Positions 50,355 to 53,307 of a stretch of DNA of 64,000 nucleotides are shown here, piece by piece. Positions within the stretch are counted from its first letter, which is position 1, and each line of letters opens with the position of its first letter. This stretch comes from Spirochaetota bacterium (GTDB taxonomy: Bacteria > Spirochaetota > Brachyspiria > Brachyspirales > JACRPF01). The DNA lies in the NCBI GenBank assembly GCA_016214035.1, contig JACRPF010000005.1, positions 1 through 64,000 on the forward strand, read 5' to 3'. Under the pieces are notes generated by a model. That model saw only the letters and a list, made by a program, of their open reading frames with translations. It was not told the DNA's origin and searched no databases. A program made the translations under genes and the position numbers.

Positions 50355-51698
50355 GCGGAGGCGTTGTAATCCTGTACAAGCAGTTACTTGTTTTTCTTTG
50401 CCTATAACGACTCCTACGGTGACAATTACGGATTCTATCGATCTGAAATAGAAATGGAAACGAATATATACCGGCGCTGCGGCATCCCGAAATACGGCCT
50501 TTCCCGCATCCGTTGCACCAACGACAACTGCGGCGAAGAATACATACTGCTGTTCTCCTGCAAAGACCGTGGAATATTTCCTTCCTGTATGCAGAAGCAC
50601 ATGCGCGAAGCGGGCGATTTCATCACCCATACGATAGCCATGGAAGTACCGCACTGGCATATCATTTTCACGATACCGAAACTGATGCGGAAGAATATCT
50701 ACTGGCACCGGACAGCACGCAACGACCTTTTACGTATGGCTTGGAGATGTACTCTTGCTTTTATGCGTGGTACTCTCAAATGTGACGGCCGTCCCGGCGC
50801 GGTGATAGGCATTGAAACATCGGGGGAATATCTCGACTTGAACCCGCACGTCCATATGGTCGTGACCGATGGGTTATATACACCAGGCGGTAATTCTATA
50901 ACATGCCCCGATACGATATTCGGCATTCGACTGCCTGAAATCGCTCTGGGAACATGAAGTCGGGGCGTATGTAATCTATAAGAAATATGTCAATCAGGAA
51001 GCGGTGGCGAAGCTGTTTCATTTCTGGCACACCGGATTTTCGGTATATGCCAACCGCAGGAAAGATATTAAAAAATCGAATGAAGCAAGTGTCAAAGAGT
51101 TTGAACAGCTTGCGAGATATATTGCCAAGCCGCATTTTTCACTTAATGCAATGCATTACGTCCCGGAAACATCAACGGTGCTCTATAAAGGAACGATGCA
51201 TAATGGGAATAAAAGTAATTTCAGGATTTATAAAGCAACGGACTTTCTTGCGGCCATAACGTCTCATATCCCGAAACATCGTCAAAAATATTTGAATTAC
51301 TACGGCGTCTATTCCAACAAATCACGCGGACGTAATACGACGATAAAGCCGCCACCGATGTGCAGCGTACGTGCGCAAAGAATTGGGCGATGATGATACG
51401 AAAGATATGGGAAGTAGACCCATTGGCATGCCCAAAGTGCGGAAAGGAAATGCGTTTTGTGCTGATAGTGCAGGAGGCGTATGTAATACTGTATAAGCAG
51501 CTGCTGCAAAGGATGGACGCGTGGTATGAGGAGCCGGTAAGGGCGCCTCCAAGACTTGATATTCAGAAAACACTCAGTCTGACGTATGAGCCGTTAGCGG
51601 ATGAATGGAAAGCTACAGGGACGGCGGCCGTAGAGTCAGAAGCTGAGGTGGTAACAGATGAATGGGCGGGAACTAACAGCGAATTTGCGGACGCATGA
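50355..51698 (+). pseudogene. Frameshifted IS91-family transposase
   Basis: Pieces of one transposase appear in succession. There is an N-terminal fragment (VVILYKQLL), then FAYNDSYGDNYGFYRSEIE... with the zinc-type CTNDNCGEEYILLFSCKDRG and ETSGEYLDLNPHVHMVVTDG (the HUH-type His pair HVH), then in another frame FHFWHTGFSVYANRRKD...AKPHFSLNAMHY, and in a third frame the C-terminal zinc motif DPLACPKCGKEMRF. At least two, probably three, frameshifts (near 50390, 50945 and 51360) break it. IS91 elements move by rolling-circle replication and can mobilise neighbouring DNA. Its ends were not located. It sits between two glycosidase genes. Confidence 0.9.
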
Positions 51699-51852
51699 AG
51701 GTGAGGTATGTCGATTAAATATTCAATATCAGCGCATGAGTATGAATTGGGATAGAATTCATGCGTGATTATGTGCCGATAAGACATGTGCTGCAGTGAG
51801 ATTGTAAAACTGATATGTCGCATGCGGTAAAAAAAGGAAAGTACTCCTTATG

Positions 51853-53307
51853 TCACCAATCCGTTTCCCGGTAATCTTTAAGGAATTTTCCCCATACATG
51901 ATTTCCTGTGTTAAACCCATGTATGATCGGATCGACTATTCTTGCCGCTCCGTCTACAATATCAAGCGGCGGATGAAAACGATGTTCCTGCACTTTACGC
52001 GCTGCAATATCCACCGGATCTTCATCAGTAACCCATCCCGTGTCAACACTGTTCATATGAATGCCGCTGTGAAAATAATCGGCTGCTGATGTTCTGGTCA
52101 TCATATTCAGTGCCGCTTTCGCCATGTTCGTGTGCGGATGTCTCGTTGTTTTAAATTTCCGGTAGAATTGTCCTTCCATCGCTGACACATTGACGATATG
52201 TTTATCCCTTTCCGGTGTGCGTGTCATAAGCGGTTTTAATCGCGCATTTAAAATAAACGGGGCGACGGCGTTCACGAGATGCACTTCAAGCAGTTCGACG
52301 GCAGGCACTTCATCCATCAGCAGCCGCCATGAGTTTTTTGCGCGCAGATCGATCTGCTGTAAATCCTGATCAAGTCTGCCGATGGGAAATAACTCATCCT
52401 GCTTCGTCAATTCTTTTATGTTATCCGCTTCGCCTTCCGGCAGCATATAATATCCCCGAAGTCCTTCATATCCGCCAAGAAGCTTTCTTGCATCCATCGG
52501 CAAAGCATGTATCGATCCGGTTTCAAGATCCATCATATGCTGATAAAAATCGGGAGGACGACGCACCGTCTGGCAGGCATTATTGATGATGAAATCAAGC
52601 CGGTCATACTTTTTCATAATATGATGACAGAAGGCATCGACACTCGGCGTGTGCCGCAGATCAAGTCCGTAGATTTCAAGACGATCCGACCAGTCGGAAA
52701 AATCCTTTTCAGATGAATACCGCACTGCGGAATCACGGGGAAATCGTGTGCTCACAATGAGCCGGGCACCGGCGCGAAGCAGTTTAATCCCCGCCTGATA
52801 TCCGATTTTAACACGTCCGCCGGTGAGCAGCGCCACACGTCCGTGAAGGCCGGCCGATTCGGTGCGTTTGAAATAGTTTAAATCCGCGCATTCCGGACAG
52901 AGCTGATCGTAGAAATGATGAATGACGGAATATTCTTCTTTGCACACATAACATTTTTTTTTATCGCGCACGTGCATTGCTTCATCACTATCCTCCTGTA
53001 TAAAATTACGTGGAGGTGTGATGTTCGGTGTGATAAACACTTTTTCACTGCGCAGTTTCCGGATGCCGGTTTCCTGCAGTTTCGTCTGGTCTTCCTGCAT
53101 TTTCGCCGCTTTTCTGTCGCGCACCTGTGCTTTCACTAAACTCCGGCGGGCTTTCGTGTCAGGACAGAATATCGTTCCTGCCGCCTGTATTAATCGTGTC
53201 CGTTCTTCCGGTGATAATGCCGCAAGTAGTGTTCTGTCAGCGGCAATCTTTTCAAAAATAGTAATCGCTTCTTTCAGCTGATGTTGTTTTGTTTCGGGGT
53301 TATTCAT
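51853..53307 (-). CDS. SDR-family oxidoreductase with N-terminal zinc-finger region
   Basis: Residues about 1-110 are helical and charged; Cys119, Cys122, Cys137 and Cys140, with His130-131 between them, look like a treble-clef or rubredoxin-like zinc site. Residues about 157-484 are a Rossmann fold ([31 protein letters not shown]). The usual YxxxK catalytic motif reads Thr393-N-M-A-Lys397, with Ser375 (NVSAMEG) present, so the catalytic tyrosine is replaced. The base composition is visibly more AT-rich than the neighbours, suggesting transfer, perhaps with the adjoining IS91 element. A promoter ends 8 nt before the ATG. Substrate unknown. Confidence 0.82.

Follow-up and report, generated by a model that had tools for sequence, protein, structure and literature searches.

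Short-chain dehydrogenases/reductases (SDRs) make up one of the largest enzyme superfamilies, in which a tyrosine is regarded as the central catalyst. Of the described systems, the closest to the protein considered here are the classical SDRs, such as gluconate 5-dehydrogenase, FabG and tropinone reductase (PF00106/PF13561), with which it has in common homology, the fold and the position of the cofactor loop. The protein is encoded in the window, by which is meant the whole 64,000-nucleotide stretch of Spirochaetota DNA that was analysed, and it belongs to a family that also has the Asn and Lys of the catalytic tetrad and the NNA motif in common with the classical enzymes. In contrast to these, however, the family has Ala for Ser, Thr for Tyr, Lys for the middle Gly of TGxxxGxG, and NNAC or NNAA for NNAG, and it adds an insert of about 80 residues, an N-terminal helix and a CxxC...CxxC site. 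Pteridine reductases (PTR1/PTR2) likewise have a basic side chain midway along the glycine loop, where it is tied to NADPH, but unlike the window family they keep the catalytic Tyr-Lys pair; they gave weak profile matches to the window protein (E 5e-6 to 1.4e-5), in partial alignments only. An SDR without the catalytic Tyr, as in the window family, is known in SimC7, which reduces a ketone although its YxxxK motif is replaced, and for which substrate-assisted chemistry has been proposed (PMC5039031). SimC7 is a single biosynthetic enzyme that keeps Ser and has Ile and His in place of Tyr and Lys (PMC5039031), whereas the window family has lost both Ser and Tyr and kept Lys.

The gene is intact from its ATG to its stop codon, and its features are collected in Table 1. 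Pfam matches are confined to the SDR domain and fall in two pieces that flank the insert, adh_short at residues 158-249 (E 1.6e-14) and adh_short_C2 at residues 335-429 (E 1.1e-13), both above the Pfam cut-off. NCBIfam returned 121 families at E 0.01, and among the 25 matches listed all are of SDR type and far below the curated cut-offs. The protein is a member of the SDR superfamily, of the classical type, with a Rossmann fold and the SDR order of elements.

Table 1. Features of the SDR-like gene and its product, with positions in the window.
Feature	Positions	Strand	Remarks
SDR-like protein, catalytic Ser and Tyr both replaced	51853..53307	(-)	484 aa
Basic helical segment, residues 51-90, N-terminal of the zinc site	53038..53157	(-)	from charge and a low-confidence model
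Putative zinc knuckle CxxC-x14-CxxC, residues 119-140 (C119, C122, C137, C140)	52888..52953	(-)	
Cofactor loop TGGRVKIG, residues 162-169	52801..52824	(-)	TGxxxGxG with Lys for the middle Gly
Family-specific insert flanked by beta4 and alpha4, about residues 245-335	52303..52575	(-)	from alignments; helix and strand placement by model
Asn346, tetrad Asn kept	52270..52272	(-)	108/108
Ala376 at the catalytic Ser position	52180..52182	(-)	Ala in 108/108; aligned with Ser of SDRs
HPHTNMAK, residues 390-397	52117..52140	(-)	Thr393 at the Tyr position, Lys397 kept

Structure modelling supports the SDR fold, at moderate model confidence. The full-length model was poor (pLDDT 55.5) and was set aside, but a model of residues 112-484 (mean pLDDT 68.4, pTM 0.74) follows the SDR order of elements up to the helices after beta6, with no beta7 assigned. 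Confidence in this domain model is highest over the first Rossmann half, where ten-residue blocks have pLDDT 72-95 (domain residues 41-130, window residues 152-241), and falls below 50 in the loop that leads into alpha5 and over much of the insert. The matches returned by Foldseek and VIA-align are SDRs, and NADP(H)-dependent reductases are numerous among them. Tropinone reductase II was the best fold match in the re-examined Foldseek list (Z 21.1, rmsd 3.8, 221 residues aligned). Superposition by Foldseek is rough, with TM by query at 0.41-0.48 and rmsd at 5.9-11.3 over the 50 matches listed. As solved structures, generic SDRs were found but no close relative, the full-length profile giving no matches at 1e-10.

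The family was assembled from 133 ORF matches in the fetched loci, of which 25 were removed as repeats with identical last 200 residues. The remaining 108 and the window protein make 109 distinct sequences, and all of these except the fragment L111 cover the active site. The 80 GTDB loci in this collection were fetched with six peptide patterns, none of which includes the TNMAK site, and therefore they were not selected for that site. In the cofactor loop, Thr162, Gly163, Arg165, Lys167, Ile168 and Gly169 are each present in all 107 covering rows, with Gly164 in 86 and Val166 in 83; the loop is a variant of the classical TGxxxGxG motif, the middle Gly being Lys in 107/107. Arg188, after beta2, is also invariant (107/107). 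A basic residue at the middle of the glycine loop or after beta2 points to NADP, and these residues suggest a preference for NADP over NAD.

Profile-profile alignment (hhalign) to four ordinary SDRs (probability 98.6, E 7.9e-16) placed Thr393-N-M-A-Lys397 in the YxxxK columns, setting HTNMAK over AYAAAK of one of them (L007) and a ten-residue family segment over KIINLCSMMS. The original prediction had held that the catalytic Tyr is replaced by Thr in T-N-M-A-K, and that homologues with Tyr would expose an alignment error; among the 108 family sequences that cover the site, none has Tyr in this column and all have Thr. His390, Pro391, His392, Asn394, Ala396 and Lys397 are equally invariant (108/108 each), as Met395 nearly is (107/108), and the block is almost identical across Verrucomicrobiota, Actinomycetota and Deinococcota. 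The loss of the catalytic Ser to Ala376, again in 108/108, had escaped that prediction. As a control, the matching columns hold Ser and Tyr in 15/15 ordinary SDR ORFs and Lys in 13, with Arg in two; this set comprises nine ORFs from the window's genome (eight loci from 19 matches) and six from related genomes, includes two that are the same stretch (L003 and L004), and has four members that went into building the profile used. The tetrad Asn column, occupied by Asn346 in the family, is Asn in three of the four reference SDRs and Asp in L007. Because Thr393, Ala376, His390, His392, Lys397 and Asn346 are each fixed in 108/108 among relatives down to about 40% identity, the altered site is maintained and not drifting. 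In the sequences examined it is a property of the family and not an oddity of the window gene.

Two further elements that had been noted at the outset were borne out by the wider set. A CxxC...CxxC site does precede the Rossmann domain: Cys119, Cys122, Cys137 and Cys140 are present in all 107 rows that cover them, of the 109 distinct sequences with the window protein included, span a constant 22 residues in the family alignment, and are kept also in Actinomycetota and Deinococcus. The metal site itself is putative. His130 within the knuckle is nearly invariant (104 His, 3 Asp), and a domain search of 52 members gave weak matches to zinc-finger families, namely DUF2039 in 8 of the 52 (best E 0.042), DZR_2 in two (best 0.27) and zf-C4 in one (0.14). 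The long insert is also real. Between Asn242 and Asn346 the window protein has 104 residues and the family 93-152, versus 25 in L007, and in the domain model the flanking elements are beta4 at 239-243 and alpha4 at 342-361. The insert is family-specific, with conserved residues that include QTVRR and D-L...NSW, and while varying in length it still keeps Asp320, Asn325 and Trp327 in 108/108.

The reading that is preferred here, with a probability of about 0.5, is that the protein is a stand-alone NADP(H)-binding SDR that works as an enzyme with altered chemistry. In this reading, for which we infer cofactor binding, the pocket-lining residues, His as an acid, zinc binding and any activity, Ala and Thr have become fixed where classical SDRs have their catalytic Ser and Tyr, and the family has held on to the cofactor loop and the fold, together with Asn346 and Lys397. 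Lys397 would still hold the nicotinamide ribose, and proton transfer would fall to one of the two invariant His that closely precede Thr393 (His392 or His390) or to the substrate. Binding of the substrate would be the task of the family-specific insert, through QTVRR and D-L...NSW, and the putative zinc knuckle and the basic N-terminal helix would form a structural or docking module. Reduction of a ketone by SimC7, whose YxxxK is replaced, provides a precedent for an enzyme of this sort. The domain model puts residue 393 near the start of the predicted helix alpha5, but it cannot place His390 and His392 relative to the nicotinamide because residues 377-392, with both His, have pLDDT below 50.

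Of the two options raised by the original prediction, another proton donor stands at about even odds, and a non-catalytic regulator is the main rival, possible but less probable. An altered enzyme is preferred over a sensor because strict conservation extends to many positions outside the cofactor site. Apart from the insert residues named above, Gln246, Thr247, Arg250, Tyr255 and Glu262 among the presumed pocket positions are each found in 108/108, as are Glu378, Phe381 and Lys386, and Asp422-T-G-Trp425 is found in 109/109. However, loss of Tyr normally abolishes SDR catalysis, and such strong conservation of the pocket would suit a ligand sensor too; both points count against an altered enzyme.

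If the protein is a non-catalytic sensor or regulator, its NADP(H)-binding SDR domain would sense a metabolite or the state of the cofactor, and the N-terminal part, with its basic segment and putative zinc site, would bind a partner, for example a nucleic acid or ribonucleoprotein. This is consistent with the absence of both acid-base residues from every family site and with the invariance of the zinc-type Cys. It is consistent also with the charge of residues 51-90, which has a median of +10 (range +2 to +14 in 107 sequences) versus -2 for the SDR part; this segment is a long helix in the low-confidence full-length model. Additionally, no conserved pathway genes surround the gene, as described below. 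On the other hand, invariance is as strict at the presumed pocket residues and in parts of the insert as at the cofactor site, and it is not obvious why a protein that only reads its cofactor should have retained Lys397. The Deinococcus homologue is without most of the basic helix, which is therefore not essential to the family, and the domain search of 52 members placed no nucleic-acid-binding family above threshold.

A bolder form of the altered-enzyme idea, which we regard as speculative and rather improbable, is that the family is an ancient bacterial SDR branch over several phyla, in which Ser-Tyr was exchanged for an HPHTNMAK (His-Thr-Lys) centre and which docks through the basic helix and zinc knuckle to nucleic acid or ribonucleoprotein. 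If this were true, a fold thought to need Tyr would be catalysing redox or repair chemistry on a substrate linked to a macromolecule. Slightly more doubtful still is an ordinary reductase of the usual chemistry with its Tyr supplied from elsewhere, such as Tyr255 in the insert or Tyr382 in the extended loop. Tyr255 is invariant, Tyr382 is Tyr in 89/108, and Ala376 and Thr393 are always 17 residues apart, versus 13 in L007, so that the loop is four residues longer. However, residue 382 is variable (8 His, 3 Leu, and also Phe, Met and Gly) and is thus not a universal replacement proton donor; Tyr255 lies in the insert after beta4, where the model gives no usable placement, and the Ser partner is missing as well. 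That the gene is an ordinary SDR which has decayed locally or been misaligned, as a truncated second copy in the genome and a broken IS91-like transposase beside the gene might have indicated, can be dismissed in view of the intact ORF, the Thr found in 108/108, the Tyr aligned there in 15/15 control ORFs and the constraint on codon positions.

With respect to this constraint, third codon positions are 31-40% identical to two relatives and first and second positions 75-86%, with dS saturated, and the far lower conservation of third positions indicates that the gene is under protein-level (purifying) selection.

Tyr and Ser are lost in 108/108 across several phyla while much of the rest of the presumed pocket is frozen, which offers a clean natural test of the SDR fold and poses the question of whether the family performs other chemistry on that fold or is a widespread cofactor sensor. 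The architecture had been thought unfamiliar in bacteria, but it is widespread: of 366 candidate stretches in a scan of contigs from GTDB genomes, 357 were confirmed as loci of the family, and members at 40-50% identity are also present in plasmid records from Deinococcus, Tsukamurella and two Streptomyces. After these plasmid relatives, the next matches come from ordinary SDRs and extend over no more than 30% of the domain. The best 80 of the 357 loci have 65-72% identity (best segment) and are mostly from Verrucomicrobiota, with Elusimicrobiota and Gemmatimonadota. Within the window's own phylum, the family is present in 25 of 392 genomes (E 1e-20), and the one genome sampled from the window's taxonomic family gave only a weak match resembling ordinary SDRs. 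Two plasmid records name the protein merely 'SDR family NAD(P)-dependent oxidoreductase', and the plain 'oxidoreductase' of such labels is supported by nothing found here. No description of the family was found in the open-access literature searched. Overall, this is a widespread bacterial SDR family, apparently stand-alone and apparently unstudied.

A tree of 107 rows (two short rows omitted), built by a quick method and with long branches noted, placed the window protein, together with one from genome G040, inside a Verrucomicrobiota-rich group of 81 rows (support 98), and 22 other proteins of the window's phylum in a separate group (support 99). The tree calls for at least two changes of phylum label on its supported branches, and inside its group the window protein is only loosely placed. 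This placement, apart from the 22 proteins of its own phylum, suggests that the window copy was acquired horizontally. G040, of the same phylum, has two copies, one in each family branch (G040:C133 and G040:C75; L125 and L126). Five copies from MAGs labelled Klebsiella, Akkermansia or Proteobacteria (L034, L013, L020, L027 and L031) are nested among Verrucomicrobiota-labelled copies; of these labels, Klebsiella and Proteobacteria are probably incorrect.

Gene neighbours were compared in 104 loci (80 from GTDB, 4 from plasmids and 20 from further genomes), using ORFs of at least 80 aa and with many flanks ending at contig ends. No conserved neighbours were seen; the two commonest clusters, one of which we take to resemble a response regulator and the other RmuC, occur in nine loci each, and these loci gave no sign of an operon or pathway context. 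The window gene stands alone amid carbohydrate-active genes (a CBM9 protein and a beta-helix/LamG protein). These belong to a carbohydrate-active stretch at window positions 42336-63800, which also encodes an apiosidase-like protein with Ig/F5-8C/CBM6 domains, an AraC regulator and two aldo/keto reductases.

A phage or viral origin was rejected, since no relative of the window protein was found in viral_contigs, nor among phage records at E 1e-10, and looser phage matches cover at most 25% of the query and resemble pieces of ordinary SDRs. A match to PHROG 3142 is strong (E 3.2e-57) but uninformative, because the same model matches 13/14 control genomes and other SDRs of the window's genome more strongly. 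PADLOC anti-phage defence models gave no family at E 0.01 for the window protein.

Just past the 3' end of the gene, the adjoining IS91-like transposase (Zn_Tnp_IS91 and Y2_Tnp) is split over two ORFs at window positions 50388-51393 (+) and is apparently broken. An 81-bp stretch at 51702-51782 is repeated elsewhere in the genome at 83%. The truncated second copy of the gene lies at G000:C2:28248-28490 (locus L118, about 1495-1737) and retains residues 42-122 at 85% amino acid identity, being cut on both sides and ending inside the zinc site; relative to the window gene, dN is 0.06 and dS 0.47 over 71 codons.
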